A DNA stretch of 34,581 nucleotides, taken from the NCBI RefSeq assembly GCF_016919725.2, contig NZ_JAJERH010000043.1, positions 1 to 34,581 on the forward strand, given 5' to 3'. The notes below the pieces were generated by a model. It saw nothing but the letters and a program-made list of their open reading frames with translations. It ran no database searches and was not told the DNA's origin. This document shows positions 11,949 through 33,206 of the stretch, piece after piece (the first letter of the stretch is position 1; every line of letters begins with the position of its first letter). The position numbers and the translations under genes were made by a program. The stretch comes from Virgibacillus sp. AGTR (GTDB lineage Bacteria > Bacillota > Bacilli > Bacillales > Amphibacillaceae).

Positions 11949-11978
11949 CTTCTCCCTCCTTAAGGATAAATAATTTAT

Positions 11979-12003
11979 TGTCATGTATTACGTTGACATG
12001 ACA
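11979..12003. promoter_or_regulatory. Inverted repeat upstream of the nuclease gene
   Basis: TGTCATGT (11979-11986) and ACATGACA (11996-12003) form a perfect 8-bp inverted repeat with a 9-base spacer, 31 bases upstream of the chosen nuclease start. It could be an operator or a leader hairpin. It does not resemble a Pho box that I can recognise. Confidence 0.35.
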
Positions 12004-15509: not shown

Positions 15510-15518
15510 TCATTTTCC

Positions 15519-15558
15519 TCCTATGCTGATAACTGTTTCGTGTAACCTCAGCATAGGA
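15519..15558 (-). promoter_or_regulatory. Hairpin overlapping the ribosome binding site of the ABC ATPase gene
   Basis: A perfect 11-bp inverted repeat (TCCTATGCTGA at 15558-15548 and TCAGCATAGGA at 15529-15519 on the minus strand) has an 18-base loop. The 3' arm ends within AGGAGG, so folding in the mRNA would hide part of the ribosome binding site. As DNA it could instead be an operator. There is no T-run, so it is not a terminator. Confidence 0.5.
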
Positions 15559-15620
15559 AAAAATCTGCAATTCAGCAGTATTTTTACCGTGAATGGAGCC
15601 ATTGAATGGATGAATGGAGT

Positions 15621-16958: not shown

Positions 16959-17027
16959 TATAGATTTTCTGTATATGGCACCTACACTATTCGATTTTTT
17001 AATACTATGCAAAGGTGGCGGTCTATA

Positions 17028-18347
17028 ATGTTGAAAGATATATCAGCCATTATCATCTTTCCTTTCAATCAAAAAGTATTCTATAAAATGATAGCTTCTT
17101 TACGTGCTCTTCATAAGAGAATAAATTCTGTTATTGTATTTCAAGAAGAAAATGTAGTTTTAGATAGTAGTCAGTTTAGTGATTGGTCTATCCATTTTGA
17201 TTTTGTTCCTATTAAGAATGACTTAGAAAAAGAACTAAATAATGTGATAGATCAGATGATTACCCCCTATGCTTTATTTCTAAGTCACACACATTGTCTA
17301 TCTCCACATATCTCCTCAGAAAAGCTTCAGCTTAAACAACCAAAGACAGTGTTAGCAACGTGCTGCCATGACCATCATAGTATTATTTATCTGCCACTTT
17401 TCGTATCGACTGCGTATATTAAAAAAATAGGTGGGTTCTCCAACGTTAAAACTCCATTTAAAGAAGCCTTTTTGCCTGCTTGGATTGCGAATATAGATAA
17501 ATCATGTCAAGTTAACAAAGAAGGTTTGATTAAGCAAGCATGGCAAACAGTCACCTCTACAAATAAGGAAAAACAATTAATGATAGAAAAATACCAATTA
17601 GAAAAAAATAAACGAAGTTCTCCTTCTCTTACTGTATTAATCTCAAATTATAATATGGAAAAATATGTAGAAACCGCCGTTGCTTCATGCACTTTACAAA
17701 TAGAACCATTTGATCAAATACTAATCATCGATGATGGCTCTACAGATAACTCCTTAAATAAACTATTACAATGGGATAATAGAGAACAGGTAAGATTATT
17801 TACCAAAAATAATGGAGGCAAGGCTAAAGCCTTAAATAAACTACTACCTTATGTTACATCTGAATTTATAGTAGAGCTTGATGCCGATGATTGGCTAGAT
17901 CCTAATGCAGTATCCATTGTAAAAAAGTACTTATTAAAGCTCTCGAAGGAAACATCCGTGCTCTACGGTAATTTTAGGAGATGGAAACAAGTAAATGAAG
18001 ACATACTTTTTAAAGGAATAAGTAAGGGGAAAAGCGTTGACGGAGAAGCTGAGTTGATGTCTTATTCATTCCCTCTCGGACCGAGGATATATCGAACATC
18101 GATTTTAAAAAAAGTAGGTGGCTTTCCAGTAATCGATTTTGAAAGTGGAAGGCTGTATGAAGATGTAAGCATCTTATTGCAATTAGTAAAGCAATCTAAG
18201 CTACATTATCAGGATTTTACGATTTATAATATTAGAGAACACAAAGAAAGTATTACCAAAAATAACGGTAGCAAATGGAATGAGTTTATTAACAACATAA
18301 TTCCTAGGATAAATAATAAAAGTCCTAAAATAAATGAAAAGGATTGA
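17028..18347 (+). CDS. Family 2 glycosyltransferase with a degenerate N-terminal GT-A-like half
   Basis: A 439-residue cytoplasmic protein. Residues 201-400 are a GT2 domain (LTVLISNYNMEKYV, IIDDGSTDN, the metal-binding DxD in ELDADDW at about 284-289, and LYEDVSI as the likely base region). Residues 4-150 look like a second, eroded GT-A fold: it keeps an IKKIGGF-type motif but has LSHTHC where a DxD would be. ATG at 17028 follows AAGGTGGCGG; the in-frame ATG at 17007 precedes that site. It opens the glycan cluster, next to coat genes and behind a sigma-K-like promoter. Bacillus subtilis CgeD, a sigma-K-controlled spore protein, is a possible analogue, unproven. Confidence 0.88.
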   Translation: MLKDISAIIIFPFNQKVFYKMIASLRALHKRINSVIVFQEENVVLDSSQFSDWSIHFDFVPIKNDLEKELNNVIDQMITPYALFLSHTHCLSPHISSEKLQLKQPKTVLATCCHDHHSIIYLPLFVSTAYIKKIGGFSNVKTPFKEAFLPAWIANIDKSCQVNKEGLIKQAWQTVTSTNKEKQLMIEKYQLEKNKRSSPSLTVLISNYNMEKYVETAVASCTLQIEPFDQILIIDDGSTDNSLNKLLQWDNREQVRLFTKNNGGKAKALNKLLPYVTSEFIVELDADDWLDPNAVSIVKKYLLKLSKETSVLYGNFRRWKQVNEDILFKGISKGKSVDGEAELMSYSFPLGPRIYRTSILKKVGGFPVIDFESGRLYEDVSILLQLVKQSKLHYQDFTIYNIREHKESITKNNGSKWNEFINNIIPRINNKSPKINEKD

Positions 18348-18535: not shown

Positions 18536-19666
18536 TTATAGACCGCTATTTAAAAAGTTTAAAACCTTTTCAATCACATACTCTTGTTTTTGAATAGATA
18601 GCATTGGATATATAGGCAACGCAAGTATTCTATTAGCTACTTTTTCTGCTATCGGGAAATCCCCTTCTTTATATTCGAGATAATGAAAAGCCTGCTGCAA
18701 ATGTAAAGGAATTGGATAATAAATAGCAGAGGCAATTCCATAATTTCTTAATTCTAGTGCAAGTTCGTCTCTTTTATCTAATTCAATACAATACTGATGG
18801 AAAGTATGCGCTTTGTTATTTGGTATTACTGGGCTTTTCACAAATTCCTTAAAGTTATCTGTATACCGCCTTGCAACCTCCCTTCGCTGATGCAGGAAAA
18901 TATCTAAATAAGATAATTTAATTAATAAAATAGCAGCTTGAAATTCATCAAGCCTACTGTTCATACCAATTGATGAATGATAATATTTTTCCTTACTACC
19001 ATGATTTCTGAGTTTACAAATTTGTTCATAAACCTTTTTTTGATTCGTAGTTATCATTCCTGCGTCACCAAATGCCCCGAGATTTTTTGAAGGAAAAAAA
19101 GAGAAGCAAGCAATATCTCCAATCGATCCTACTCTTTTTCTATCATCTTCTGCTCCAATTGCCTGACAAGCATCTTCAATCACCTTCAAGTTATATTTTT
19201 TAGCTATATCTATGATTTCTTTCATTCTAGCAATTTGACCATATAAATGTACTACAAGAATGGCTTTTGTTTTTTCCGTAATTTGTTCTTCAATTTTTGC
19301 AGGATCTATATTATATGTTTCTTCTTCAATATCTACAAAAACAGGAGTAGCACCGACTTGTGCGATGGCTTCACCAGTAGCAAAGAAAGTAAACGGAGTA
19401 GTAATTACTTCATCTCCGTCCCCAACATTTAAAGCTTTAAGGGACAATTCTAACGCATCAGTGCCATTTGCTACTCCGGCACCATACGATGCTCCTACAT
19501 ATTTCGCTATTGCCTTTTCTAATTTCTCTCCTTTTTCTCCTAGTATATACTCACCGCTATCTAAGACATCACCTAACGTCTCGATAATTGGACTTCTTAT
19601 TAGATATAATTCTTCTTTTAAATCTACCATTGGAATAGGGGTTAATTTGTTATTGTTAAACATCAT
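18536..19666 (-). CDS. DegT/DnrJ/EryC1 sugar aminotransferase, WbpE-like
   Basis: A 376-residue PLP enzyme that transaminates a keto-sugar nucleotide. It shows the family layout: PMVDLKEE at the N-terminus, [22 protein letters not shown] with the PLP Asp, and the Schiff-base Lys in [15 protein letters not shown]. Its N-terminal and active-site motifs fit WbpE, which makes UDP-GlcNAc3NA from the 3-keto-uronate, and also SpsC-type spore polysaccharide enzymes. The start overlaps the stop of the upstream dehydrogenase gene by four bases, and AAAGGAGGAG lies just inside that gene. A second ATG directly follows and is equally possible. Partner enzymes WbpA-, WbpB-, WbpD- and WbpI-like are all in this window. 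Confidence 0.9.
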
Positions 19667-20985
19667 AACTCCTCCTTTGGCTTTTCATTACCTATACTCC
19701 TATAAGTAATCCCCAGACTACTGATCTCATTTTTATTTAGTTTATTTCGGCCATCTAAAACTAGCATACAATTTTTGAACTCTTCAAAACTTAAATCAGT
19801 ATAAGCATCATGAAAAGCCTGAAGGATTACAACATCAATTTCAGAAACAAATTTATCCTGTAAAGATAAAGGCGAAGCTCCATATGATTTAATTTCTTCA
19901 TTCGTAAATAAAGGATCATTTACAAATACATTTGATCGCATATTCGTTAGTTGGTCCATTAAAAGTAATGTTGTAGACTTAGTTGGTTCCTTTACATTTT
20001 CTCTATACGATAATCCTAGAATGAGAATATTTTTGTCTGTTAAGCTTCCAAGTTCCTTTTCAATCTTAGCAATAGCATAATTAGCCATACGATCATTAAT
20101 TGTCCTTGCCAACCGTGTCATTCCTTGTTTCAAACCTTTATTAATAAAAAAATATGGATATATTGGAATACAATGTCCTCCAACACCAATTCCAGGTGTG
20201 TGTAAATGTGAATATGGCTGACTATTACTTGCTACTATTACTTCTGACATATTTACGCCTTTTGTTTCTGCAAACTGAGCTAGCTCATTTGCAAGTGCAA
20301 TATTCACATCACGATATACACATTCTGCAATTTTAGAAAACTCAGCTGTTTCTATTGAGCTCACTTCAATCAATTCACAATGTAAAGCATTTTTATAAAA
20401 TTTTACAGCTAATTCCAAACTCTTTTCATTAACTCCACCAACAACCTTTGGATATTTTTTTAAATCTTCTATTATTCGATTGGAATAAACTCTCTCTGGA
20501 CTATAAGCGAGGTAGAAATCTTCTCCTAAGCGTAAACCAGATAGCTCTTCTATCTTTTTACCAAACCGATGTTGTGTATCACCAGGAGGAATAGTCGTTT
20601 CAAAAATAACTAGTGTACCTTTTTTAATCCCACTAGCTATATCTTTAACGGCAGCATCTATCAATTGATAATCTACATTGTACTGATTATCGATTAGTAC
20701 AGGGACAATTACAACAACTATATCCGATTTCGTAACAGCTTCTGCTGTCACAGTGGTTGCAGATAAGTTCTTGCTTTTATGAGCTGTCAAAACCAACTTA
20801 TCTAAGCCAGGTTCATTAACAATATGAGATTTACCTTGATTAATTGTAGCGACAACATCCTTATTTATATCCGATCCATAGACATTATAATTATTATTCG
20901 CAAATACTGCAGCCAGCGTTAATCCAATTTTCCCAAGTCCAATTACTGCCACATTCGCTAATGCTTCTTGTTGATTTGTTATCAT
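19663..20985 (-). CDS. UDP-sugar 6-dehydrogenase, WbpA/WecC family
   Basis: A 440-residue NAD enzyme that oxidises C6 of a UDP-HexNAc to the uronate in two steps. Present are the N-terminal Rossmann motif ([12 protein letters not shown]), [15 protein letters not shown], the catalytic Cys in [13 protein letters not shown] and the C-terminal domain [20 protein letters not shown] and the inserted [18 protein letters not shown] favour the GlcNAc/ManNAc branch over UDP-glucose dehydrogenase, but substrate is inference. Translationally coupled to the WbpE-like gene downstream. A start at ATG 20985 follows GAGGGTG. It would supply UDP-GlcNAcA to the WbpB-like oxidoreductase at the far end of the cluster. 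Confidence 0.92.
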
Positions 20986-21095: not shown

Positions 21096-22103
21096 CTACT
21101 TTAGTTCGTTATAAATATCAAGATAACGTTGTGCGACTATTGGAGAATCATGATATGTCTCAATATATTTTCTTCCCCTTTTTCCAAGCTTATTCCAGCT
21201 CTTTGGTCTTTGGATTAGTTCTTTTAGTACGCTTGTAATCGTAGAAGGATTCGCATTTATGATTGGGGTATTACCGGGGTATTTAGTCACTAGGTCTTCC
21301 CTTAAATAGCAAATAACAGGCTTTCCGAAGGCCATTGCCTCAGAACTAATATACCCGCTAGCCCCAATTCGTAACTGATCAATAACAATATCAGCTTGGG
21401 ACAGCAGATTCCTTGTCTCTTCATATGTAATCCCTTCAAGCAATTTAAACTGAAAAGGTATTCCTGATTCCTTTAAATCATGAACAGCTTGTAAAATAAA
21501 TTCTGTCCCCTTAAGATCGCGCGAGGTAGGAGCATGAACAACAAGTGGAGATGTTTTTCGTGGGTCAGGGTACTTTGGCTTAAAATTACGGACATTAATA
21601 GTATGTGGAATAATATGTGTATGTTTATACATGTGTGAAATATACCCTTCCAATTCAGGGTCTTGGACAACGGCATGATCAATATAGCCTGAAAGAGTAA
21701 ATACATTGCTATATATTTTTTCTTCCGTCCATTCAGGTTTCACACGAACATATGGGTTTAAACGCTTTGCAACGGACAATACGCGAATATCAGAACCATG
21801 ATGATGTACGATCATTTTCTTACCTGCTTGCTTTAACATGGCTAGATCCCTTTTATCAGAAAAAAAAGTTTCACCAAAATGAAAGTGAAAGATGTCATAG
21901 GTTTGCATCGCTTCTTCTAAAAATTCGTTGATTCTTTTTTCCCTTTCCGTAGGTGGTAATAAATTTAAATGTAGGCACATATCTGGTTGAAACTTGTATA
22001 TATTGTCGTTAAAATGGCATGCTGTCGCCTCGACTCCTTTTGCTCGTAATGCCCGACATAATTCAATCATAGGGGCACCATAAGGTAAATGTAAGACTTT
22101 CAT
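21096..22103 (-). CDS. GT4-type glycosyltransferase
   Basis: A 335-residue protein of the GT-B fold. N-terminal half: KVLHLPYGAPMIELCRALR, then DIFHFHFGET and KKMIVHHHGSDIR at positions usual for the acceptor domain. C-terminal nucleotide-sugar domain: VVHAPTSRDLKGTEFILQA, DIVIDQLRIGASGYISSEAM and the FGKPVICY loop. No signal peptide or membrane helix. ATG at 22103 has GAGGAG upstream. It is 110 bases upstream of the dehydrogenase gene and probably in the same operon. It is distinct from the three paralogous GT4 enzymes further on. Donor and acceptor are unknown. Confidence 0.88.
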   Translation of the reverse strand: MKVLHLPYGAPMIELCRALRAKGVEATACHFNDNIYKFQPDMCLHLNLLPPTEREKRINEFLEEAMQTYDIFHFHFGETFFSDKRDLAMLKQAGKKMIVHHHGSDIRVLSVAKRLNPYVRVKPEWTEEKIYSNVFTLSGYIDHAVVQDPELEGYISHMYKHTHIIPHTINVRNFKPKYPDPRKTSPLVVHAPTSRDLKGTEFILQAVHDLKESGIPFQFKLLEGITYEETRNLLSQADIVIDQLRIGASGYISSEAMAFGKPVICYLREDLVTKYPGNTPIINANPSTITSVLKELIQRPKSWNKLGKRGRKYIETYHDSPIVAQRYLDIYNELK

Positions 22104-22257: not shown

Positions 22258-23475
22258 TTATCCATCCATTAATTTTTTATACACTTTAAATAGTCTATTT
22301 TCCATATGCTCCCAACTGAACATAGACTCCATTATCTCTCGTGCATGATAACTCATCTCATCAAGCTTATGATTTTCTAAATAAAGTAAAGCTTCTACGT
22401 AATCTTGTGCATCAGCCTTTAGTTTGGGGACAACGTAACCACATCGATACGTTTGAATAAATTCAGCCATATCTTTGCATTGATTTACTAAAACAGGAAC
22501 ACCATTGTTTAAATAACTAAAGAACTTATTTGGCATAGCAAATCTGTTATTTAAAGAATGGCTGACGTCTAAATCAATCCACCCTATATCTGCATCTTTC
22601 ATAGCTTTTGGTATGGAATCATAATGCTGCCAACCAACAAATTCAATATGATCATTAATATTCGTTAGGTTGTAATGATTATTATCGTATTTATCTGCCT
22701 TCCATCCCCCAATTATTTTGGCTTTTACAGGCATTTGCTTATTAACTAATTCCAATATATGAACAAATTTATCAAAGCTCCCTCTCTTTTTATTTACTGT
22801 GCCTTCATACACAAGCGTTAATTCGGAATTGTTCGTTTTCTTCGGTACATAATCCCTAGCTAACGGTGGAGAATTATAAATTATTTCTATAGGGAGATTG
22901 AGATTAAAGGATAAATACCACTCTTTAATTGATTCAGATACAGTTACCAAATAATCTAACTCTTTTAGCATTATTTTCAGCATCTGAATTTTTATTTTCA
23001 ACGTTTGGATAGGCTGTTTTAAAAGGGGGTCAGGTTCTAATTCATGACTATCATAAACAAGTTTGCATCGTTTTCCTTGAGACATGAATGCACGTTTGAT
23101 CAAAATACCAGAATATAAAGAAAAAAATTCATGTGCATGATAAATATCAGCATCCTGCTCAATCCCTAGTTGTGTTAACGGATCTGAAAACTGATTATTC
23201 TTTTTCGACTGGAGGTTATAATGCAATGTTTTTATATTTTTTTCCGGGAACATTTGCTCATATGTAACTATCTTTATGCCTTCATAATAAAACGTTTTTT
23301 CTAGAAAACGTTCAGTAAATGTACTACCGTCAATATCAAATAAATACCCCTCTATTCTGGGCACAATCATCGTTACACGATACCCTTGTTTTAACAGGCT
23401 CTTCGCTTCCTTTTTAAAAATACGAGCATCCAGAAAAGGATGCTCCGTTAATAAAAAACAAACATCTGTATGCAT
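22258..23475 (-). CDS. GT4 glycosyltransferase, paralogue A
   Basis: A 405-residue GT-B glycosyltransferase. It begins with CFLLTEHPFLDARIFKKEAK and shares this and a VDGxxF-type insert with two other proteins in the window (23508-24701 and 26623-27840). The donor-site region reads DADIGWIDLDVSHSLNN followed by MPNKFFSYLNNGVPVLV. Cytoplasmic, no membrane segments. The ATG at 23475 follows GGGAGGG, 32 bases after the stop of paralogue B, so the two are co-transcribed. The paralogues presumably add related sugars to the same glycan. Confidence 0.9.
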   Translation of the reverse strand: MHTDVCFLLTEHPFLDARIFKKEAKSLLKQGYRVTMIVPRIEGYLFDIDGSTFTERFLEKTFYYEGIKIVTYEQMFPEKNIKTLHYNLQSKKNNQFSDPLTQLGIEQDADIYHAHEFFSLYSGILIKRAFMSQGKRCKLVYDSHELEPDPLLKQPIQTLKIKIQMLKIMLKELDYLVTVSESIKEWYLSFNLNLPIEIIYNSPPLARDYVPKKTNNSELTLVYEGTVNKKRGSFDKFVHILELVNKQMPVKAKIIGGWKADKYDNNHYNLTNINDHIEFVGWQHYDSIPKAMKDADIGWIDLDVSHSLNNRFAMPNKFFSYLNNGVPVLVNQCKDMAEFIQTYRCGYVVPKLKADAQDYVEALLYLENHKLDEMSYHAREIMESMFSWEHMENRLFKVYKKLMDG

Positions 23476-23507: not shown

Positions 23508-24701
23508 CTATAACAGAAAATACGGTTGTCGGTTTCCAACTAAGGATTGATAAACCGCCAATAAACGTTTTTCCATATGGCTCCAGCTATAGGTTTCTTG
23601 CATAACGTTTCTTGCATTCTTACTCATTATCTGCCATTCATTCGGGTATTGGTGCAAATATTTTATCGCATCTATATAATCCAAATAGCTAGGATTTCGT
23701 TTATTAATCACCATTCCACAGTAATACGTTCTAATAAATTTCTCTAGATCACTACATTTATTTCCTATAACAGGGATGCCATTGTTTAAATAACTAAATA
23801 ATTTAGCAGGCATGGTAAAGGCATTATTAAGTGAATGTGATGGATCAAGATCTATTAACCCAATATCTACATCCTCCATGGCTTTCAGTAGATCATGATA
23901 ATTAATCCAACCAAATAGCTCTATCCTTGATTGTAAATGTTTTGGTATGGAAAGTGTTTCCCCGTATCTTGGGCCACCAATGATCTTAAAGTGAATATCA
24001 TTATCTTCATTGTAAAAATCCGTTATTGCTTTTATTTTCTCAAAGGTTTCTTTTGATATATTTCCTTCATGTGCTACCACAAGTGAATGATTAGACCCAT
24101 TTTTTTTCTTGATATTTGGTGTTAATGATGGCGCATTATACACGACCTCTATGGATAGCAATGGATCTATAGATAAGTACCAGGATTTAATCGATTCAGA
24201 TACTGTAACAATGTAATCAACCTCTTTTAAATTATCTTGGAGTGTCCTCATCCATCTTTGCTTTGTTTCAGCATTGATTTTTAAAGAGAATGGGTCTGGA
24301 ATTATTTGTCTGCTGTCATATATTAATTTAACCTTTTTATTGTTCTGCTGTCTTAAAGCACACTTAATTTCTTTACCATATGTAAATGAATTCAACTCAT
24401 GGGCATGATAGAAATCTGCATTCTCTTTCAATCCTAATTGATAAAGAGGATCAGATAAATAATTAACGGATCTTTTTTCACTATCATAGGTAACAACTTT
24501 AATGCCTTGATAATAAAAAACCTTATCACGAAATTGCTTGGAAAATGGTTTTCCATCGACATGAAATAGCAGACCGCCTTTTCGTGGTGCAATAATCGTA
24601 ACATCAAAACCATGATTTAAAAGGCTTTTGGCCTCACATTCAAATATACGTGAATCTAGAAAAGGAAGGTAACATAGCAACATACATACCTTTTGATTCA
24701 A
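23508..24701 (-). CDS. GT4 glycosyltransferase, paralogue B (TTG start)
   Basis: A 397-residue GT-B enzyme, like paralogue A along the whole length (YLPFLDSRIFECEAKSLLNH; DVDIGLIDLDPSHSLNN; MPAKLFSYLNNGIPVI). It starts with TTG at 24701, six bases after GGGGGA; no ATG is better placed. It is the first gene of the minus-strand operon that runs to the terminator at 18470, and faces an SDR gene across 148 bases. It is the most divergent of the three: the ERGSF/KRGSK segment following the YEG motif in the others is altered to ISKETFEK. Donor unknown. Confidence 0.9.
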   Translation of the reverse strand: MNQKVCMLLCYLPFLDSRIFECEAKSLLNHGFDVTIIAPRKGGLLFHVDGKPFSKQFRDKVFYYQGIKVVTYDSEKRSVNYLSDPLYQLGLKENADFYHAHELNSFTYGKEIKCALRQQNNKKVKLIYDSRQIIPDPFSLKINAETKQRWMRTLQDNLKEVDYIVTVSESIKSWYLSIDPLLSIEVVYNAPSLTPNIKKKNGSNHSLVVAHEGNISKETFEKIKAITDFYNEDNDIHFKIIGGPRYGETLSIPKHLQSRIELFGWINYHDLLKAMEDVDIGLIDLDPSHSLNNAFTMPAKLFSYLNNGIPVIGNKCSDLEKFIRTYYCGMVINKRNPSYLDYIDAIKYLHQYPNEWQIMSKNARNVMQETYSWSHMEKRLLAVYQSLVGNRQPYFLL

Positions 24702-24849: not shown

Positions 24850-25605
24850 ATGGATTTACAATTACAAGGTAAGAAAGTACTTGTTACTGGTGGAACAAAA
24901 GGAATTGGTAAAGCAATAGCAGAAGCCTTCCTAAAGGAAGGGGCCAAGGTGGGTATTGTAGCTAGAAATAAGTTAGAACTAGAAGCAGTAAAAAAGGAAC
25001 TTGGTGTCAAGATTTATACAAAAGATATCGCAAATAATCAGCAAAGAGAACAATTAATATCTGATTTTATAAACGATTTTAATACAATAGATGTTCTTGT
25101 TAATAATGCAGGGGCTAGCTATGGAAAAAGTATTTTAGAAACACCCCCCAATCTCTTTAATGAAGCGATGAATCTCAACTTTATCGCTGCTGTTCATTTA
25201 AGTCAATTAGCAAGTCAGCACATGATTGCTGAAGGGTCCGGAGTAATTATAAACATCTCTTCTATTTACGGAAAGGAATCAGGGGGAGTTCCAGCTTATA
25301 ACGCTTCAAAATCCGCTTTAAATAGTTTCACAAAATCGTTTAGCTCTGAAGTAATAAAACATAATATTCGTGTTAATGGTATTGCTCCAGGTGCTATTTT
25401 CCACCCCAACAAGGAATGGAAACGACGAATTAAAAACGACCCACACTTCTTAGACAATTATGCACAAGCTAACATACCAGCAGGAAGACTTGGTAAACCA
25501 GAGGAGATAGGAAATACTGCTGTTTTTCTTGCATCAAATAAAGCTTCGTGGATCGTTGGATCTACAATTAGTGTAGACGGTGGACAGTCACGATTGAATT
25601 ATTAA
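24850..25605 (+). CDS. Classical short-chain dehydrogenase/reductase
   Basis: A 251-residue NAD(P) oxidoreductase of the FabG/glucose-dehydrogenase type. It shows the cofactor motif TGGTKGIG, the structural NNAG, the catalytic Ser in INISSIYG, YNASK with catalytic Tyr and Lys, and the C-terminal STISVDGG. ATG at 24850 has TGGAGG upstream. It is followed after 7 bases of non-coding DNA (25 to the chosen start) by an extended SDR gene in the same direction. Within the cluster it may reduce a keto-sugar or an unrelated carbonyl; the sequence does not say which. Confidence 0.9.
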   Translation: MDLQLQGKKVLVTGGTKGIGKAIAEAFLKEGAKVGIVARNKLELEAVKKELGVKIYTKDIANNQQREQLISDFINDFNTIDVLVNNAGASYGKSILETPPNLFNEAMNLNFIAAVHLSQLASQHMIAEGSGVIINISSIYGKESGGVPAYNASKSALNSFTKSFSSEVIKHNIRVNGIAPGAIFHPNKEWKRRIKNDPHFLDNYAQANIPAGRLGKPEEIGNTAVFLASNKASWIVGSTISVDGGQSRLNY

Positions 25606-25630
25606 ATGAAACATGGAAGGGAAGGGCAAC

Positions 25631-26608
25631 ATGAAAAGGCAGTCACTTAAAAACAGTACTATTTTAGTCATTGGTGGAGCGGGCTTTATTGGAAGTCACT
25701 TAATAGATAAATTAATAGAAGAAAAAGCTAAAGAAATTATTATTTTGGATAATCTTTTTACCGGAAACAAAGAAAATTTAACCTCTGCTCTGGAAAAGAA
25801 TAATACAACGCTTTATATCGATAATGCCGAAAACCAAGAAACCCTAAACTATATTATGGAAGAACACGACATTGACATTGTTTTTAACTGTGCAACCAAA
25901 GCATTGAATTATTCGTTTATGAATCCAGCCAATGCCTTTTTAACAAATGTTATAGTTTTAAAAAATTTATTAGAATTACAACGAAAAAAGAAATTTAAAA
26001 CACTGTGTCATTTTTCATCATCAGAGGCATTTGGATCATCTCAGTATCAACCGATGGATGAAAATCATCCTTTAGCTCCTACAACAACTTATGCCGCCGG
26101 AAAAGCTGCTGCTGATTTGATGTTACAGTCTTATGTAACCATGTTTGATCTAGACGCATTTATTGTTCGGCCATTTAATAATTACGGGCCTAGACAAAAT
26201 TTCACAGGACCTCTAGCTGGGGTTATTCCTACAACGATTAGAAAAATACTTTCTAATGAAATTCCTGAAATTCATGGCAGTGGTCAACAAACAAGAGATT
26301 ATATATATGTGAAAGATACTGTCGATATCGTGACAACACTATATTCCGTAATTCCTCCAGGAGATTCTGTAAATATTACAACAGACCAACAGTTATCGAT
26401 TGAATATATAATGGAGACGATCATTGATGAAATGAATTATCAAGGAGAGATCCTTAGAAAACCAAATCGAAAAGCTGATGTTACCAGCCATAGGGGATCA
26501 ATGAAAAAATTGCAGAGCTTGATTGGCTCCTATAGTAAAACTGACTTTAAGGATGGTATTGCATTAACGATAAATTGGGTAAAACAGCAGGTCACTGAAA
26601 CGAACTAA
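25631..26608 (+). CDS. Extended SDR nucleotide-sugar epimerase/dehydratase family
   Basis: A 325-residue Rossmann enzyme: GGAGFIGSHL cofactor motif, DNLFTGNKEN, HFSSSEAFG with the catalytic Ser, YAAGKAAAD carrying Tyr and Lys, RPFNNYGPRQ and the substrate loop IHGSGQQTRDYIYVKD. This pattern is shared by UDP-glucose/UDP-GlcNAc 4-epimerases and related enzymes, so 4-epimerisation of a UDP-HexNAc is likely but not proven. The ATG at 25631 is chosen because AAGGGAAGGG precedes it; an in-frame ATG at 25613 lies within the binding-site region. It ends 14 bases from the converging paralogue C gene. Confidence 0.9.
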   Translation: MKRQSLKNSTILVIGGAGFIGSHLIDKLIEEKAKEIIILDNLFTGNKENLTSALEKNNTTLYIDNAENQETLNYIMEEHDIDIVFNCATKALNYSFMNPANAFLTNVIVLKNLLELQRKKKFKTLCHFSSSEAFGSSQYQPMDENHPLAPTTTYAAGKAAADLMLQSYVTMFDLDAFIVRPFNNYGPRQNFTGPLAGVIPTTIRKILSNEIPEIHGSGQQTRDYIYVKDTVDIVTTLYSVIPPGDSVNITTDQQLSIEYIMETIIDEMNYQGEILRKPNRKADVTSHRGSMKKLQSLIGSYSKTDFKDGIALTINWVKQQVTETN

Positions 26609-26622
26609 AAAAGAGCTTTACG

Positions 26623-27840
26623 CTAGTTATTGAGTAACTCATGATATACATTATCTAATCGGTTCTCCATTTTCTCCCAGCAATACGTTTCTTCCATTAC
26701 TTTTCTAGCGTTTAGACTCATTTGTTTCAATACCTTCTTATTATTGGCTAAATATAGCATAGCTTCAGCATAATCTGTAGCAGTAGCATCTCTTTTATTA
26801 ATTACTAAACCACATCGATGGGTTCGTAAAAAAGATTCCATCTCGTGGGAGCGGTTTACTACAATAGGAACACCATTATTTAAATAACTAAAGAATTTAT
26901 TCGGCATCGCATAGGAACGATTAAGTGATTCATGTAAATCTTCATAATCAATCCAACCTACTTCTACATCTTTCATATGTTGTGTAATAGAATAATAATC
27001 TACCCACCCAGTTAATTTAATTTTATCCTTTAAATGATTGGGAAGTTTAAATGTATCACCAAACCTCGTTCCACCTATAATTTTAAATTGAAATCCGATG
27101 GAATCAGCACATTTTTCTGTAATTTGTATTATTTTATCCTTACTTCCCCTTTTATAATCAATGTTACCTTCGTAACAGGCAATTAGACCATTTCCGGTAA
27201 AGTCCTTTGGTTGAAATTCTTTAACCAATGGATGCGAGTTATATATGACCTCTACAGAAAATGTGGGATCTTGGGAAAGAAACCAAGACTTTATCGAATG
27301 TGAAATGGTAATGATTTGATCAACTTCTTTCAGCATAATTAAAAGCTTCTCTTTCAAGTTATTGCGATGACTCTCATGGTTTTTAGGATCGAAAGGGTCT
27401 GGTGTTAATTCATGACTATCATAAATTAACTTTACTTCTTTATTCCTTTGCTTTAATAACCTTTTTACACCAATCCCAGCAAAAAGCGATAAATACTCAT
27501 GAGCATGATAAACGTCTGCATTTTGTTGTATACCAAGTTCTGTTAATGGGTTACTGAACCCTTGTTCCCACTTAGATACGGGAGCTACGACTTTGCTTAA
27601 TGGTGCTCTACTTTCTTCAAATGAATAAGTGACTATCTTAATTCCTTCATGCATAAATGATGAAGAAGTAAATTTATCTTTTATAGGAGTACCATCTATG
27701 TCAAACAAATATCCATCCTTTCTAGGAACAATTAATGTCACATCATAACCTAAATTTTTTAAACTTTTGGCTTCTCGTTTAAATATTCTAGAATCTAAAA
27801 ATGGGTGTTCTGCAACTAACATGCATACCTTTTCAGACAA
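26623..27840 (-). CDS. GT4 glycosyltransferase, paralogue C (TTG start)
   Basis: A 405-residue GT-B enzyme homologous over its full length to paralogues A and B (VAEHPFLDSRIFKREAK; VPRKDGYLFDIDG; HESLNRSYAMPNKFFSYLNN). It starts with TTG at 27840, nine bases after AGGAAAGGGG; the nearby ATG is out of frame. It forms its own minus-strand unit, separated from A and B by the plus-strand SDR pair, so the triplication was followed by rearrangement or the SDR pair was inserted. Divergent from the 2-epimerase gene. Confidence 0.9.
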   Translation of the reverse strand: MSEKVCMLVAEHPFLDSRIFKREAKSLKNLGYDVTLIVPRKDGYLFDIDGTPIKDKFTSSSFMHEGIKIVTYSFEESRAPLSKVVAPVSKWEQGFSNPLTELGIQQNADVYHAHEYLSLFAGIGVKRLLKQRNKEVKLIYDSHELTPDPFDPKNHESHRNNLKEKLLIMLKEVDQIITISHSIKSWFLSQDPTFSVEVIYNSHPLVKEFQPKDFTGNGLIACYEGNIDYKRGSKDKIIQITEKCADSIGFQFKIIGGTRFGDTFKLPNHLKDKIKLTGWVDYYSITQHMKDVEVGWIDYEDLHESLNRSYAMPNKFFSYLNNGVPIVVNRSHEMESFLRTHRCGLVINKRDATATDYAEAMLYLANNKKVLKQMSLNARKVMEETYCWEKMENRLDNVYHELLNN

Positions 27841-27991: not shown

Positions 27992-29065
27992 ATGCACATT
28001 TTAACTATAGTAGGCGCAAGGCCACAGTTTATCAAAGCATCCATGTTATCTAAAGCGATCAATTCCCAATCCAAAATAAAAGAAATCATGGTACACACAG
28101 GTCAACATTATGATGATAATATGTCTACCATCTTTTTTGACCAATTAAAGCTTGCTAAACCAGATTATTATTTAGGTATAGGTTCTGGCTCTCATGGTGA
28201 ACAAACTTCTAAAATGCTATTAGAATTAGAAAAGATTATGATGTCTGTTAAGCCTGATATTGTACTTGTATATGGAGATACGAATTCAACCCTTGCAGGA
28301 AGCATCGCTGCAGCAAAACTCCATATTCCCTTAGCTCATGTTGAGGCTGGTTTACGTAGTTTTAATAAAAAAATGCCTGAAGAAATTAATAGAGTGATTA
28401 CTGACCATTTATCAACATTGCTATTTTGTCCAACGCAAACTGCTATTAATAATTTAAAACACGAAGGCATCAACAGAGGTGTTTATTTAACGGGAGATAT
28501 TATGTATGATTCTATTCTTTACTTTAAAGATCATGCTATCCAACAATCTACCATTTTAGAAGATTTATCACTTACAAATAATAATTATTATCTTGCCACT
28601 GTTCATCGAGCAGAGAATACCGATCAACCCGAACATTTAAAACAAATACTAACTGCATTTCAACAATTAGCTAAAACAGTAGTCCTTCCATTACACCCTA
28701 GAACTAAAAGTAAAATTAAACAATATAAGTTAAATGAATTAATTGATTTACCTCATATCAAAACAGTAGAACCATTACATTATTTTGATATGTTAGCATT
28801 AACTGCTCAAGCAACAGCAGTTCTAACTGATTCTGGTGGTTTACAAAAAGAAGCCTATATGCTACAAATTCCGTGTATTACATTAAGGCAGGAAACAGAG
28901 TGGATTGAAACTGTACAGACCGGCTGGAATCAGCTAGCAGGATATAATACGAAACAAATAGTAAATAATGTCAGGAATCTAAAGACTCCTAATCATTCTC
29001 CTCCACGGTTTGGTGACGGAAAAGCAGCCTACGCTATTCACCATATTTTAATGAATGACTTTTAA
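27992..29065 (+). CDS. Non-hydrolysing UDP-sugar 2-epimerase, WbpI-like
   Basis: A 357-residue GT-B-fold epimerase (VGARPQFIKASMLSKAI, HTGQHYDDNMS, YGDTNSTLAG, HVEAGLRSFNKKMPEEINR, TVHRAENTD, LTDSGGLQKEA). Generic UDP-GlcNAc 2-epimerases carry TERPE in the substrate loop; this protein has ETEWIETVQTGWNQL, the form found, as I recall, in WbpI/WlbD enzymes acting on UDP-2,3-diacetamido-glucuronate. It is therefore the probable last step of UDP-ManNAc3NAcA synthesis. A start ATG follows AAAGGAG. Plain WecB/MnaA activity is the alternative. A dispersed repeat lies 47 bases downstream. Confidence 0.9.
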   Translation: MHILTIVGARPQFIKASMLSKAINSQSKIKEIMVHTGQHYDDNMSTIFFDQLKLAKPDYYLGIGSGSHGEQTSKMLLELEKIMMSVKPDIVLVYGDTNSTLAGSIAAAKLHIPLAHVEAGLRSFNKKMPEEINRVITDHLSTLLFCPTQTAINNLKHEGINRGVYLTGDIMYDSILYFKDHAIQQSTILEDLSLTNNNYYLATVHRAENTDQPEHLKQILTAFQQLAKTVVLPLHPRTKSKIKQYKLNELIDLPHIKTVEPLHYFDMLALTAQATAVLTDSGGLQKEAYMLQIPCITLRQETEWIETVQTGWNQLAGYNTKQIVNNVRNLKTPNHSPPRFGDGKAAYAIHHILMNDF

Positions 29066-29489: not shown

Positions 29490-30485
29490 TTATACAGTAA
29501 CTTTTCCGTCTAAATAGCCTTTCCATCTTTGTAATGCTTCGTTCATTTTTGCGTCCTTCTCTATCGAGTTTAATGCAGCTAATAAATGGATATGGGTAAT
29601 ATGATACCCCCACTTTGCTACATTTGGATAACCTCCATCCGTTGTATAATGCGTTAAATCATAAGCAGTGCGTGATCCCAAATCATATAAAGGTAACATT
29701 CTTTTTAGCGAAACAATTCCTTCTTGATATAATTTTTTTGTTTCCACATCACCACTTTGTTTATAAAGATCATATAACCCAATTAATGCAAACATGAAGC
29801 CATTCAAAATAAAACTAGGTGGATCTGTTGGACATTCTTCATAGAACATGTACTTGTCTTCAAACTTAGCTAGCACCCCATTGTTATTTGAAGGGATTTT
29901 AAACATTTTAGTGGCTTTTAATGCACTTTGCTCATACTTTTTATCTCTGGTAAACGCAGTAGCCCTAGATAAAACAGACATGACCATACCTAATCCAATA
30001 GCAGAATACCATGGAGACTTGATTTTATTTAACCTAACAGGGCAATAGTGAAGATCAAATTGATACGACCACCCTCCTTGTTCGTCTTGATGATGCATAA
30101 ACCAATCAGCTACTTTTAAAAATTTTTGCTTACTTGCATATTTCTTCTCTTTTAAATAAATGCTATAATGTTGCAGCCCATATTGAGCAATTGTAGAAGG
30201 ATTAAAATATTTTCCATACGTGTAAACTGTTTTGGGAATACCATTAATAAATTCAACATTCCAATTCTCTACACGATTTCTGTCATAATGTAAGTAATTA
30301 CCTTGATAATCATATTGATCTATTTCTAAATAACGAGCCTTCGTAATGAAAATTTTCAGCAAATTATCTGTTTCTAGCCACTCTTTTTCAACACCATAAC
30401 CTTTTTCTAGTAAAGTTATTGGAATTAGAAATTCATTACCAATTCTCTTCCCAACTGCTTCGAATTGATTATGCATCAAAACCAT
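29490..30485 (-). CDS. D-glucuronyl C5-epimerase (Glce) family protein
   Basis: A 331-residue protein matching the catalytic (alpha,alpha)6-barrel of heparan-sulfate glucuronyl C5-epimerases. Visible matches are STIAQYGLQHYSIYLKE (97-113), PPSFILNGFMFALIGLYDL (222-240), LPLYDLGSRTAYDLTHY (264-280), KWGYHITHIHLLAALNSI (291-308) and the end QRWKGYLDG. Two of the three active-site tyrosines (human 560 and 578, from memory) align with Tyr275 and Tyr294; the third (human 500, in EEYPTTP) is Cys218 here (EECPTDP). There is no signal peptide or membrane helix, so it acts in the cytoplasm. It is last in a three-gene operon after a CgeB-like glycosyltransferase and a WbpD-like acetyltransferase. Its likely role is inversion of C5 in a uronic acid of the glycan; the substrate is unknown. 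Confidence 0.88.
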   Translation of the reverse strand: MVLMHNQFEAVGKRIGNEFLIPITLLEKGYGVEKEWLETDNLLKIFITKARYLEIDQYDYQGNYLHYDRNRVENWNVEFINGIPKTVYTYGKYFNPSTIAQYGLQHYSIYLKEKKYASKQKFLKVADWFMHHQDEQGGWSYQFDLHYCPVRLNKIKSPWYSAIGLGMVMSVLSRATAFTRDKKYEQSALKATKMFKIPSNNNGVLAKFEDKYMFYEECPTDPPSFILNGFMFALIGLYDLYKQSGDVETKKLYQEGIVSLKRMLPLYDLGSRTAYDLTHYTTDGGYPNVAKWGYHITHIHLLAALNSIEKDAKMNEALQRWKGYLDGKVTV

Positions 30486-30517: not shown

Positions 30518-31207
30518 TCAACTCTCTTCTGATAAATCTATTTTTTTTGCGGGTATGCCTACAGCTATTACACCATTTTCTAAATGCTTTGTAACAACAG
30601 AACCTGCACCGACTATCGTGTTGTTTCCAATATTGACCCCCGGTAGTAATGATGCATTGTTTCCAATTTTGGCACCATTTTTAATAAAAGGTCCCTTTAG
30701 GCTATAACTTCGCGCTCCCATATACTTATCATTAGACATTGATACACAGGGACCAACAAATACATTATTTTCTATTATAGTATCCCCTGTAATATATGCC
30801 ATTGTTTGAATGGTACAAGAGTCTCCAATTTGTGTATTTAGTTCAACTATCGCTGCTCTACCGATAACCGTTTTATCACCGACTATCGTATTTTCTCTGA
30901 TACTTGCATGATCACCAATGAATACCTCTTCGCCAACTTGAGTACCAGCGTAGATGGATACTAGATGACCAATCCGTGTACCAGCTTTAATTACTAACTC
31001 GGTAGTATTCGACGTTTTCCGCATTCTTTGGTTAATAGCTGGCTTGATACCAAGAACACAATTACAGCCAATCATTACATTGTTATCAATTTTTGTTCCC
31101 TCTAAGATCACAGAGTTATGGCCAATTACAACATTCTCTCCAACTGTGACGTGATCCTCAATTGTAACATGATGACCAATCTGAGTGCTTTCAGGTATAG
31201 AAGACAA
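30518..31207 (-). CDS. Left-handed beta-helix N-acetyltransferase, WbpD/WlbB-like
   Basis: About 229 residues made of hexapeptide repeats (IGHHVTIEDHVTVGENVVIG and so on) forming a left-handed beta-helix acyltransferase. GPCVSMSNDKYM and GAKIGNNASLLPGVNIG resemble WbpD/WlbB, which acetylate the 3-amino group of UDP-GlcNAc3NA. I place the start at the TTG at 31207, seven bases after GGGAGG. An ATG at 31222 overlaps the stop of the upstream gene (TAATG) but has no ribosome site of its own, and its first codons are that site. Operon order: CgeB-like glycosyltransferase, this gene, C5-epimerase. Confidence 0.88.
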   Translation of the reverse strand: MSSIPESTQIGHHVTIEDHVTVGENVVIGHNSVILEGTKIDNNVMIGCNCVLGIKPAINQRMRKTSNTTELVIKAGTRIGHLVSIYAGTQVGEEVFIGDHASIRENTIVGDKTVIGRAAIVELNTQIGDSCTIQTMAYITGDTIIENNVFVGPCVSMSNDKYMGARSYSLKGPFIKNGAKIGNNASLLPGVNIGNNTIVGAGSVVTKHLENGVIAVGIPAKKIDLSEES

Positions 31208-31221
31208 ACAAAAACCTCCCA

Positions 31222-32145
31222 TTATTGTGATTGAAGTATCTTTTCTATTTTCTTAACTAATTGTTGTGCTCGGTGTTGAACAGTATGGTGTTGATGAATA
31301 AACCGGTATCCTTGTTCAATAATTTGTTTCCGTTCCGTTTCATGAGCTAAAAAATATGCTGCCTTTTCTTCAAAATCATTTTCATCGATTGCGACAAAAT
31401 GTACTCCTGGAATAAAGCCTATATCTTCTAATTCTTTAAAGGTAGGGGCTAATAGCAATGTTTTACAAGCAAGTGCTTCAAAATATTTTAGAACTGGATA
31501 ATTATGTCTAGATGGACAAGTAAAAAATAGCTTTGATCTGTTCAATTCTTTTGCATAATTCTGCTCAATCATCTTTTCTTGTTCTTTCCCTCTGAAACTT
31601 TGATAACCTGGATGCCTGTAATAAATGAAATCAGCATTCCCCTCATACGTCTTTATAATTTTTTGCCTTAAGGGATACGTATCACTTACCGCTCCCATCA
31701 ATAATAAATTGAAATCTTTTTTTAACTTATAGTCTTTACATACATCTATATTGACGAAATGCGGAAACCATTCCATTTTATCTTGAAATTCAGGATATAA
31801 TGTTAAAAATTTATCTCTAATGACAGAAAACAAGTAGTCTATATTATTTTTATTAATAAAATTTCGTCTAAGGCTTATAAAGCGATGAACATCATTTACA
31901 AATAACCCAGTTGGTATATCAATATGAGCAAGGCCTTTTATCTTTGGTGACATGTGTCGATCAATATCATTTAAAAGTAAGATAAAATCTGGTCTAGTTT
32001 CTAGCTGCCTTAAAATATAGTCAATGTGTCCAGGCTTTCTCCATATTGTTAAATGTACAACATTTTTAAGCTCTTGTTCTAAATAAAAATAATTTCTGTT
32101 AATCATTTTTGAAGTGTCTTTTGCAATGAATAGTAAATTAATCAG
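31222..32145 (-). CDS. CgeB-like (Glyco_trans_1_2) glycosyltransferase, probable CTG start
   Basis: A GT-B glycosyltransferase of about 307 residues. The C-terminal domain (FFTCPSRHNYPVLKYFEALA, then LAPTFKELEDIGF and GVHFVAIDENDFEEKA) is the type found in the spore maturation protein CgeB. The first ATG in frame (32106) gives 294 residues but removes the first beta-strand. Upstream codons read INLLFIAKDTSKMINRNY, a standard Rossmann opening, and AAGGAG (32158-32153) stands seven bases before a CTG at 32145. I therefore extend the gene to that rare start codon. First gene of the C5-epimerase operon, divergent from the WbpB-like gene. Confidence 0.8.
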   Translation of the reverse strand: MINLLFIAKDTSKMINRNYFYLEQELKNVVHLTIWRKPGHIDYILRQLETRPDFILLLNDIDRHMSPKIKGLAHIDIPTGLFVNDVHRFISLRRNFINKNNIDYLFSVIRDKFLTLYPEFQDKMEWFPHFVNIDVCKDYKLKKDFNLLLMGAVSDTYPLRQKIIKTYEGNADFIYYRHPGYQSFRGKEQEKMIEQNYAKELNRSKLFFTCPSRHNYPVLKYFEALACKTLLLAPTFKELEDIGFIPGVHFVAIDENDFEEKAAYFLAHETERKQIIEQGYRFIHQHHTVQHRAQQLVKKIEKILQSQ

Positions 32146-32276
32146 GATAACACTCCTTCACAAAATTACTAACTGGTTAACTGCCAATTTTGAAGTTTGT
32201 CGTTATGACAGTCTACCTCGCTTTCTAGCTAATGCATAATATGTAAATAACTCGTATTCAAAGTGAGGAGAATTAT

Positions 32277-33206
32277 ATGAGAGTTGGTGTAATTGGAACT
32301 GGTAATATGGGAGAGAATCATATACGAACGTATTCGTCTATGTATCATCACTGCCAACTAATAGGTATATATGATATAGATGAAACGAAAAGAAATGAAA
32401 TTGCTAAAAAATACAATATTAAGCCTTTCCCATCATTGGATAATCTCTTAAAAGAAGTTGACGCTGTTAGTATAGCTGTCCCAACTAAGTTTCATTATGA
32501 TATTGGTTTAAAGTGTATTGATAATAAAGTACACATGTTATTAGAAAAACCTATGACCAGTACAGTAGAACAGGCAGAAGATTTACTTTATAAATCTTCA
32601 AAAGCAGGAGTCATACTTCAAGTAGGACACATTGAGCTTTTTAATCCATTAATTCAGGAACTTCTAAAGGTATTGGAAAATAAAAAAATAATTGGAATTG
32701 AATTTCAACGAATGAGTCCCTACCATGAAAGAATCAAAAATATCGATGTTGTAGAGGATTTAATGATTCACGACCTTTATATTTTGCAAGAAATTCTTAA
32801 AGAAGATAAACTCATGGATGTTCAGGCGTTAGGAAAGATAATTGACGGTACAATTAAACATGCTGTTGTCATTGCCACATCTAGGCAAGAGGTTATCGTA
32901 CAGCTGACTGCTAGTTTTAAATCAAAAAGTAAAGTTAGAACCATTCAAATCCTCACTGAAGATGATTTTATTGAAGTCAATTTATTAAAAAAAGAAATCA
33001 ACATACGAAGCTCTATTCTAACCAAAACTATTAAGGTGGATGATTCCATCCATCCATTACAAGTACAGCTAACTGATTTCATAAACTGTATTAAGGTCAA
33101 AAGAGAACCTTCTGTATCAGGAAATGAAGGAATAAAAGCATTATTAATCACCAATCAAATTAGTAAGGAAATTAGCAAAATAAAAAACGAGAACAAATAT
33201 TTATAG
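32277..33206 (+). CDS. Gfo/Idh/MocA oxidoreductase, WbpB/GnnA-like UDP-sugar 3-dehydrogenase
   Basis: A 309-residue NAD enzyme with N-terminal Rossmann fold (VGVIGTGNMGENHIRTY), the family's EKPMT motif with catalytic Lys, GHIELFNPL and DLMIHDLYI in the substrate domain. Enzymes with this pattern (WbpB/WlbA on UDP-GlcNAcA, or GnnA on UDP-GlcNAc) oxidise C3 to a ketone, which a DegT aminotransferase then aminates. With WbpA-, WbpE-, WbpD- and WbpI-like genes nearby, the WbpB role is the simpler reading; GnnA-like activity is the alternative. GTGAGGAG precedes the ATG. A partial sigma-K-like pair (TACC, then CATAATATG at 32235) lies upstream but misses the last -10 base. Confidence 0.88.
   Translation: MRVGVIGTGNMGENHIRTYSSMYHHCQLIGIYDIDETKRNEIAKKYNIKPFPSLDNLLKEVDAVSIAVPTKFHYDIGLKCIDNKVHMLLEKPMTSTVEQAEDLLYKSSKAGVILQVGHIELFNPLIQELLKVLENKKIIGIEFQRMSPYHERIKNIDVVEDLMIHDLYILQEILKEDKLMDVQALGKIIDGTIKHAVVIATSRQEVIVQLTASFKSKSKVRTIQILTEDDFIEVNLLKKEINIRSSILTKTIKVDDSIHPLQVQLTDFINCIKVKREPSVSGNEGIKALLITNQISKEISKIKNENKYL

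Follow-up and report, generated by a model that had tools for sequence, protein, structure and literature searches.

In the 34,581-nt contig NZ_JAJERH010000043.1 of Virgibacillus sp. AGTR (hereafter, at its full length, the window), we analysed a gene for a relative of the animal glucuronyl C5-epimerase GLCE, which forms the iduronic acid of heparan sulfate, in which a cysteine (Cys218) stands where the human enzyme has the active-site residue Tyr500. Comparison of the protein, its relatives and their gene neighbourhoods leads us to a reading to which we give an even chance: an active C5-epimerase that would act, in the cytoplasm of the mother cell, on a 2,3-diacetamido uronic acid already placed in a chain, with Cys218 reshaping the pocket and not serving as acid/base. 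Tentatively, and at somewhat less than an even chance, we propose that the conversion would be that of 2,3-diacetamido-2,3-dideoxy-mannuronic acid (ManNAc3NAcA) to its L-gulo form (GulNAc3NAcA), carried out at the glycan level, wholly within the mother-cell cytoplasm, for a polymer of the spore crust. The gene and the codon concerned are:

29490..30485, minus strand: C5-epimerase homologue of GLCE type, Cys218 replacing Tyr500 (331 amino acids, ATG start; from PF06662, the GLCE entries of the PDB, AlphaFold2 and Foldseek)
29834-29832, minus strand: codon of Cys218, TGT (from the sequence)

The 331-amino-acid open reading frame matched PF06662 (C5-epim_C) with 187.6 bits (E = 2.1e-55), over the curated cut-off of 23.3, and phmmer against PDB sequences returned human GLCE (6hzz, 6i01) and the zebrafish enzyme (4pw2) at the top (E = 5e-59 to 1.7e-58), after which the matches dropped to xylose isomerases with E values of at least 0.03. 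The heparan-sulfate C5-epimerase family to which the original prediction had assigned the protein from its letters alone is therefore the right one. By phmmer, residues 4-114 pair with 21-139 and residues 120-328 with 313-522 of the human GLCE construct, and the ∼170 GLCE residues between the two matched parts have no counterpart. Modelling of the structure, proposed earlier as a check, pointed the same way. An AlphaFold2 model from 15 sequences, which replaced a first one from seven (predicted local distance difference test (pLDDT) 71.7, with residues 199-218 and 270-287 below 50), reached a mean pLDDT of 88.1 and a predicted template modelling score of 0.83; ten-residue blocks averaged 94-96 over residues 201-230 and 74-88 over residues 271-300, which hold Tyr275 and Tyr294. 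Foldseek aligned the model to the helical domain of eight GLCE chains (7.7e-22 to 4.6e-21; template modelling scores by target 0.52-0.54), followed by a polysaccharide lyase at 5.4e-4, so that the predicted fold is nearest by far to animal GLCE. The beta-hairpin and beta-sandwich domains that precede the helical domain in GLCE were not found in the window protein, the model of which keeps a short strand-rich N-terminal part.

In the phmmer alignment, YEEYPTTP of GLCE stands opposite YEECPTDP of the window protein, placing Cys218 at human Tyr500, and Glu217, Asn228, Tyr275 and Tyr294 correspond to human Glu499, Asn510, Tyr560 and Tyr578, with spacing that agrees when gaps are allowed for. Glu499, Tyr500, Asn510, Tyr560 and Tyr578 are described as the key residues of human GLCE (PMC13308652), and a review gives Glu499 as the acid and Tyr578 as the base (PMC12834895). 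Four of the five residues given as catalytic, including the Glu499/Tyr578 pair, are thus retained, and Tyr500 alone is changed. Both the exchange of Tyr500 for a TGT-encoded cysteine and the retention of Tyr275 and Tyr294 had been predicted correctly, and the alignments contained no substitute tyrosine at the Tyr500 site, a finding that would have spoken against the exchange.

Glu217, Asn228, Tyr275 and Tyr294 were invariant across 20 aligned sequences. In a larger alignment, from which hits not exceeding 225 bits, loci L095 and L097 and the duplicates L011, L012, L018 and L037 were omitted, locus L075 lacked the equivalents of all four and L081 that of Tyr294. Family-wide, site 218 is mostly Tyr, with Phe in L039, Thr in L078, Val in L080 and Ile in L081; the first three retain all four equivalents, and L081 keeps those of Glu217, Asn228 and Tyr275 in that alignment. 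As proton transfer is impossible for Val, Ile and Phe, site 218 need not be an acid/base. There is consequently only a slim chance, in our view, that Cys218 is itself the catalytic acid/base of a Cys-based epimerase. Cysteine is the sole replacement in its clade and is kept with both of its codons, as might be expected of such a residue, but the residues corresponding to the Tyr578 base and the Glu499 acid (PMC12834895) are both kept, and the relatives with Thr, Val and Phe show that a titratable group at 218 is not general.

The cysteine is shared by close relatives. All six of those at 52-80% identity (tblastn), found with peptide patterns that did not include the EECP motif, carry it, contrary to the possibility, raised earlier, that close homologues all have Tyr and this strain alone is mutated. 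We then combined family searches of 150 relatives and of 397, 398 and 398 genomes of the order, class and phylum, in overlapping samples, of which 25, 34, 19 and 20 genomes, respectively, had a match at E ≤1e-3. Together, these scans found Cys in 19 full-length proteins, the window's included, and in one broken copy, which rules out a strain mutation or sequencing error as its source. In a tree of 41 rows, which additionally omits L024, L025, L042, L043, L062, L075 and L081, the 19 Cys rows formed one clade explained by one change (support 95/88, a rough value, as the bootstrap had not fully settled); the single-change pattern recurred in 96% of 200 bootstrap trees, and none of 500 label shuffles scored as low. 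The next branches outside the clade, L008 (from another family of the same order) and the zebrafish enzyme, both carry Tyr, which is therefore likely the older state. L008 is also the nearest Tyr protein, with 46% identity in the 20-sequence alignment and 51% over 294 residues in the neighbourhood comparison. Of the 20 Cys loci, including the broken copy (L136), 15 use TGT and five TGC; because both codons occur, Cys is conserved as an amino acid and not as DNA. An ancestral Tyr that changed to Cys once and was then maintained is the best explanation of this pattern. The window genome belongs to the same genus as G001, one of the Cys-type genomes. Beyond the clade, protein searches of plasmid (four records) and phage (16 records) sequences gave no match of at least 60% identity; four of these records inspected by eye had Tyr (three) or Met (one) at site 218. 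A scan of viral contigs gave 15 loci, 14 with Tyr and L172 with Val, none with Cys, and sampling GLCE relatives in three further groups (22, 14 and 4 genomes) added nothing new.

Evidence for the substrate comes from the surrounding cluster, which in the window comprises WbpA-, WbpE-, WbpI-, WbpD- and WbpB-like genes, six glycosyltransferase genes, a short-chain dehydrogenase gene and one for an epimerase/dehydratase dependent on nicotinamide adenine dinucleotide (NAD):

17007..18347, plus strand: family-2 glycosyltransferase at the cluster end (PF00535)
18536..19666, minus strand: DegT aminotransferase, WbpE-like (PF01041, 406.7 bits; PDB 7b0d 1e-109, QdtB 7e-99, WbpE 3nyu 5e-83)
19663..20985, minus strand: nucleotide-sugar 6-dehydrogenase, WbpA-like (PF03721/PF00984/PF03720; TIGR03026, 346 bits; best PDB match 4r16)
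21096..22103, minus strand: glycosyltransferase GT_e (Pfam matches under cut-off; recurrent in the cluster)
22258..23475, minus strand: glycosyltransferase GT_d (Pfam)
23508..24701, minus strand: glycosyltransferase GT_c (absent from several Cys loci)
24850..25605, plus strand: short-chain dehydrogenase (PF13561)
25613..26608, plus strand: NAD-dependent epimerase/dehydratase-type sugar nucleotide enzyme (PF01370/PF16363; no NCBIfam cut-off reached among the matches listed)
26623..27840, minus strand: glycosyltransferase GT_b (PF13439/PF13692; recurrent in the cluster)
27992..29065, plus strand: 2-epimerase of WbpI type, putatively for UDP-GlcNAc3NAcA (PDB 8sxv; Trp304/Ala16/Tyr94)
30518..31222, minus strand: hexapeptide N-acetyltransferase, WbpD-like, presumably for 3-N-acetylation (PF00132; PDB matches including QdtC 3fs8 and 3mqg)
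31222..32106, minus strand: glycosyltransferase GT_a (PF13524; on the strand of the WbpD-like and epimerase genes in the window and most Cys loci)
32277..33206, plus strand: Gfo/Idh/MocA 3-dehydrogenase, WbpB-like (PF01408; PDB 7bvj; NF040723, 218 bits)

The acetyltransferase gene is followed after 32 bases by the epimerase gene, downstream on the same strand. We compared the 20 Cys loci (the window, L098-L111, L113, L114, L136, L006 and L007) and found that the stretch fetched for 17 of them holds genes of the WbpA-, WbpB-, WbpD- and WbpI-like kinds; L113 had WbpD and WbpI, and L006 and L007 had WbpI only. A WbpE-like gene was present in 15 of the 17, and the sequence fetched for the remaining two, G030 and G002, stops first. 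Gene order is somewhat variable, and GT_c, the short-chain dehydrogenase or the NAD-dependent epimerase/dehydratase is missing from some loci.

The best PDB match of the WbpI-type protein was the 2-epimerase of Thermus thermophilus for uridine diphosphate (UDP)-2,3-diacetamido-glucuronic acid (8sxv, 1.4e-116), ahead of UDP-N-acetylglucosamine (UDP-GlcNAc) 2-epimerases at 1.4e-92 or worse. In the T. thermophilus enzyme, Trp307, Ala18 and Tyr96 are described as standing where UDP-GlcNAc epimerases have Arg, Leu/Met and His/Gln, respectively (PMC10622841), and the window protein has the same UDP-GlcNAc3NAcA set (Trp304, Ala16 and Tyr94). Trp was present in every WbpI found at the Cys loci, with Ala replaced by Ser in seven and Tyr by Phe in L007. 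At the Tyr-type sister locus L112, by contrast, these positions read E/M/H/R, as in an ordinary 2-epimerase, and the locus carries a pair of ABC-2 transporter genes. All five enzyme types of the UDP-ManNAc3NAcA pathway occur together in the window, as judged by homology, and with a WbpI of the Trp/Ala/Tyr set, unlike that of L112, the cluster very probably specifies UDP-ManNAc3NAcA. The WbpB-like 3-dehydrogenase and the WbpA-like 6-dehydrogenase score below the cut-offs of their equivalog models, the former with 218 bits to NF040723 (UDP-GlcNAc 3-dehydrogenase; cut-off 450). ManNAc3NAcA is, as far as homology can tell, the sole uronic acid for which a full route can be traced in the cluster.

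These genes also bear on whether the enzyme simply converts glucuronic acid (GlcA) to iduronic acid as GLCE does, in the same glycan, with Cys as a neutral substitution at a tolerant site. The characterised relatives described in the papers cited here act on GlcA; Glu217, Asn228, Tyr275 and Tyr294 are kept, and site 218 is variable in the family. The only nucleotide-sugar dehydrogenase among the cluster genes, however, favours the UDP-ManNAc dehydrogenase model NF040825 (285 bits) over the TuaD model NF047673 (129 bits), both under their cut-offs, the other sugar genes of the cluster fit a 2,3-diacetamido uronic acid, and the cysteine is kept as an amino acid with both codons. We therefore consider this alternative quite unlikely.

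To compare site 218 with the sugar genes, we tabulated 43 epimerase loci, entering the residues by hand and taking the WbpI state from the alignment; duplicates were counted once, and the table omits L128 (degenerate), L136 (broken), phage and viral loci, and family members for which no neighbourhood was fetched. Site 218 was not Tyr at 22 of the 25 loci with a Trp-type WbpI and at one of the 18 without. With the Cys clade entered as a single locus, the proportions were 4/7 and 1/18 (Fisher's P = 0.012), and with the clade removed 3/6 and 1/18 (P = 0.035), both without correction for relatedness. From these sequence data, Cys218 partly tracks the sugar. As a working idea, a side chain smaller than Tyr at 218 may give space for the acetamido group; in the 2-epimerase, a change from Met/Leu to Ala is described as making room for a flipped Tyr (PMC10622841).

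GLCE-family genes near a Trp-type WbpI have diverse residues at site 218 (Tyr in L117 and L137, Thr in L131, Val in L133, Ile/Val in L135), and ManNAc3NAcA may be a common substrate of the bacterial relatives. Locus L140, on the Priestia megaterium plasmid NZ_CP151784.1, combines a Tyr-type epimerase with a WbpI of the Trp type, a pair of DegT genes, a DUF2642 protein and another, small protein similar by eye to a conserved 70-amino-acid family (family 2) found at the end of the clusters studied here; we describe it as an apparent plasmid version of a spore-type glycan cluster.

A second line of evidence, the vicinity of spore coat genes, makes it likely that the cluster is spore-linked. Two features of the window are relevant:

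13083..13676, plus strand: spore coat protein with CotX/CotV domain (PF07552, 141.6 bits; the only CotX locus of the genome)
32211..32243, plus strand: conserved element resembling a promoter, GTCYAYCT...CATANNNTR, ahead of wbpB (shared by 15 of the 17 Cys loci that were scanned, with GTC positioned 24 nt ahead of CATA; the copy in the window has ATG at its end in place of ATA)

The CotX gene of the window lies 16.2 kb from the epimerase gene. Whole-genome searches found CotX in 14 of the 17 Cys-type genomes, as a single locus in all but G063; in 13 of the 14, it lay no more than 16.3 kb from the epimerase on the same contig (no more than 7.7 kb in 12 of them), and the G425 copy was on another contig. 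In G001, G056 and G025, the three genomes without CotX, an additional gene of the CotZ family lies no more than 13 kb away, so that a crust coat protein gene, CotX or an extra CotZ, lies within 16.3 kb in 16 of the 17, a count inflated by shared ancestry. Two further families, DUF2642-like and 70 amino acids long, were each found at the cluster end in eight of ten extended flank sets (for example, L158:19162-19536 and L158:19550-19762). When one member of each was scanned, the first scored just over the DUF2642 cut-off and the second had no Pfam match; both are candidate crust proteins.

Promoter patterns are consistent with expression in the mother cell. In 106 regions upstream of cluster genes, we counted 40 CATANNNTA boxes, a -10 box of mother-cell type, whereas shuffling gave 12.7 on average and none of 100 shuffles reached as many; full sites resembling the sigma-K consensus numbered nine against 1.1, and sigma-E- and sigma-A-like patterns were not in excess over shuffles in the same regions. 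The box was also more frequent before cluster genes than before neighbouring genes, by a smaller margin than over shuffles (40/115 versus 42/246 regions, P = 2e-4). For comparison, its density before flank genes was 0.76 boxes per region where these were coat-like (21 regions) and 0.20 where they were not. Sigma-K itself is encoded in the genome (379.7 bits). An element similar to the one before wbpB, GTCCAA, was seen before wbpA in several Cys loci and not in the window. Genome-wide scans did not show the pattern GTCYAWYY-N16/17-CATANNNTA to mark a wider regulon: three genomes gave eight hits (2, 4 and 2) against five (2, 2 and 1) for the reversed control, with hits inside the cluster in G056 (two of four) and G035 (one of two) and none in G000.

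We propose the following course of events. In the mother cell of sporulating Bacillaceae, with the cluster probably expressed at the time of sigma-K, a soluble pathway would produce UDP-ManNAc3NAcA, and glycosyltransferases would place the uronic acid in a chain, yielding a glycan for the outermost spore layer, the crust. C5 would be inverted after placement, as the action of the family on chains suggests (PMC13308652). Tyr294 and Glu217 would remove and return the proton at C5 in the manner of GLCE, Asn228 and Tyr275 would help to hold the sugar, and Cys218, smaller than the Tyr that packs against GlcA, would leave space for the acetamido substituent. The product would be L-GulNAc3NAcA if the substrate is ManNAc3NAcA, or the L-ido form if it is GlcNAc3NAcA. 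Hydropathy revealed no evident export signal in the epimerase, in agreement with the original prediction, and no evident membrane segment in the 14 cluster proteins of the window, the highest values (1.83 and 1.56) falling in the nucleotide-binding N-termini of the WbpA-like protein and the NAD-dependent epimerase/dehydratase; no flippase, polymerase or exporter was found among the recurring cluster genes. The earlier claim of a cytoplasmic intermediate thus stands as far as the lack of an evident signal goes, with the amendment that the cytoplasm most likely belongs to the sporulating mother cell, a setting that it had not considered: a glycan made and finished there would explain the missing export signal. 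Solubility of the cluster proteins would equally suit inversion of C5 on the UDP-sugar before transfer, and epimerisation at the nucleotide level occurs for other sugars. GLCE enzymes, however, are described as acting on GlcA already in the polymer (PMC13308652), and inversion on the UDP-sugar appears highly unlikely to us.

Several observations speak against an active enzyme for a spore glycan. In G002, of the same genus, the epimerase frame (L136/L024) is interrupted by a stop within an otherwise intact cluster, through natural loss or a sequence error. It is the kind of finding expected if epimerase activity had been lost and the protein served as a binding or scaffold subunit, and mutants of the GLCE tyrosines are impaired. 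Such a loss is nevertheless very unlikely, given that the other catalytic residues and the motifs around them are invariant both in seven aligned members of the Cys clade and in the 20 sequences. Of the three options offered in the original prediction, a different uronic acid is thus the one we favour; there is no need for Cys to serve as acid/base when Glu217 and Tyr294 are retained and Thr, Val, Ile or Phe occupies site 218 in relatives, and lost activity fits the conservation badly.

The link between residue and sugar is also looser than a rule. The table of loci leaves shared ancestry uncorrected, all loci were collected through an epimerase match, so that clusters without an epimerase lie outside the sample, and L172 has Val at 218, its fetched flanks holding no Wbp gene. 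Tyr-type epimerases (L117, L137 and L140) lie near a Trp-type WbpI as well, which rules out the strict rule that a Wbp cluster implies Cys; Cys is therefore not required beside this WbpI, and the idea of added room describes a mere tendency. Accordingly, the proposal that Cys defines a clade linked to WbpB/E/D/I genes holds in one direction, for a clade with these genes at 17 of 20 loci and fewer at L005/L113, L006 and L007, and fails in the other.

On the side of regulation, the reversed control pattern also stood slightly above its shuffles (19 against 11.9), the difference in full sigma-K sites between cluster and neighbouring regions (16/115 versus 20/246) was marginal at P = 0.067, and the window alone showed no excess in the sigma-K scan (3 against 1.66, with 23 of 100 shuffles as high; 32 against 37.8). 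In addition, genes for an ATP-binding cassette (ABC) transporter and a LytTR protein (13954-16658) lie between CotX and the cluster in the window; from this set, only the ATPase (family 39) was matched in one of ten other flank sets (G063). An adjoining transporter would suit a vegetative wall polymer of the teichuronic type better than a spore glycan, and ManNAc3NAcA is reported in a teichuronic-like polymer of Streptomyces griseus (PMC13274773). The coat genes nearby in nearly all Cys-type genomes, the excess of CATANNNTA boxes, and recurring genes without the exporter that the Tyr-type sister cluster has in its ABC-2 pair all argue against a wall polymer, which we judge unlikely.

The protein has a known family, and neither its fold nor its chemistry is new. 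Animal GLCE (Hsepi; human 6hzz, zebrafish 4pw2) shares with it the helical-domain fold and the equivalents of Glu499, Asn510, Tyr560 and Tyr578, but the window protein has Cys218 for Tyr500, is shorter at 331 amino acids with ∼170 residues fewer, lacks an evident signal or membrane anchor and lies among other sugar genes. Bermanella marisrubri RED65_08024 is likewise a bacterial GLCE relative, described as active on GlcA with an unknown native target (PMC4432689). Agl32 of Halobacterium salinarum is described as a C5-epimerase that acts on a short lipid-linked glycan before export and, unlike the window protein, has no GLCE catalytic residues at the corresponding positions according to that account, the authors of which infer a distinct mechanism (PMC13308652). 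The WbpA/B/E/D/I pathway of Pseudomonas aeruginosa and T. thermophilus has the same five enzyme types as the window, which shares the diagnostic WbpI residues and adds a C5-epimerase gene beside the acetyltransferase gene, near spore coat genes. The sps genes of Bacillus subtilis likewise specify a spore-surface sugar pathway of the mother cell and are described as sigma-K/mother-cell genes for the crust; sps makes legionaminic acid, and the genes as described there include no GLCE-type epimerase (PMC7439481, PMC4191935). Crust sugars affect adhesion and hydrophilicity (PMC7439481). What looks new here is the spore link of the cluster. Literature searches on guluronic or diacetamido epimerases and on ManNAc3NAcA with spores or C5-epimerases, from which subscription papers were mostly excluded, found no such enzyme, and the terms 'C5-epimerase', 'glucuronyl', 'spore' and 'Bacillus' together found no paper within the same limits.

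The genetic setting thus points to ManNAc3NAcA as the candidate sugar, and to the spore surface as the place, for a bacterial GLCE relative with an altered pocket. Through the Cys clade, the substrates of bacterial GLCE relatives become testable, as does the role of Tyr500 as proton donor or as pocket wall. If the proposal is true, the reach of GLCE-type epimerases would extend beyond GlcA to another sugar, and the endospore coat would contain a uronic acid epimerised at C5. Spore-coat chemistry would then gain a new acidic sugar, and a biocatalyst for rare L-gulo/L-ido diamino uronic acids would become available.

Two family members from viral sequences deserve mention. In L172:1-1062, an IMG/VR contig, a C5-epim_C-like protein with Val at 218 has an apparent signal peptide. 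In the Pseudomonas phage vB_Pae_CF23a (L138:5806-7488), one of 15 P. aeruginosa phage records matched, the C5-epim_C protein (121 bits) has, as judged by eye, an apparent signal peptide and Met at 218, and its gene directly follows that of a tailspike-like tail protein. Because P. aeruginosa O2-serogroup antigens are described as differing in mannuronic versus guluronic sugars (PMC4815439), a role in modifying the O-antigen is possible for this protein. Elsewhere in the window, a 1243-amino-acid protein (8253-11984, minus strand) combines lamin-tail, OB-fold, staphylococcal-nuclease and 5'-nucleotidase/metallophosphatase domains.

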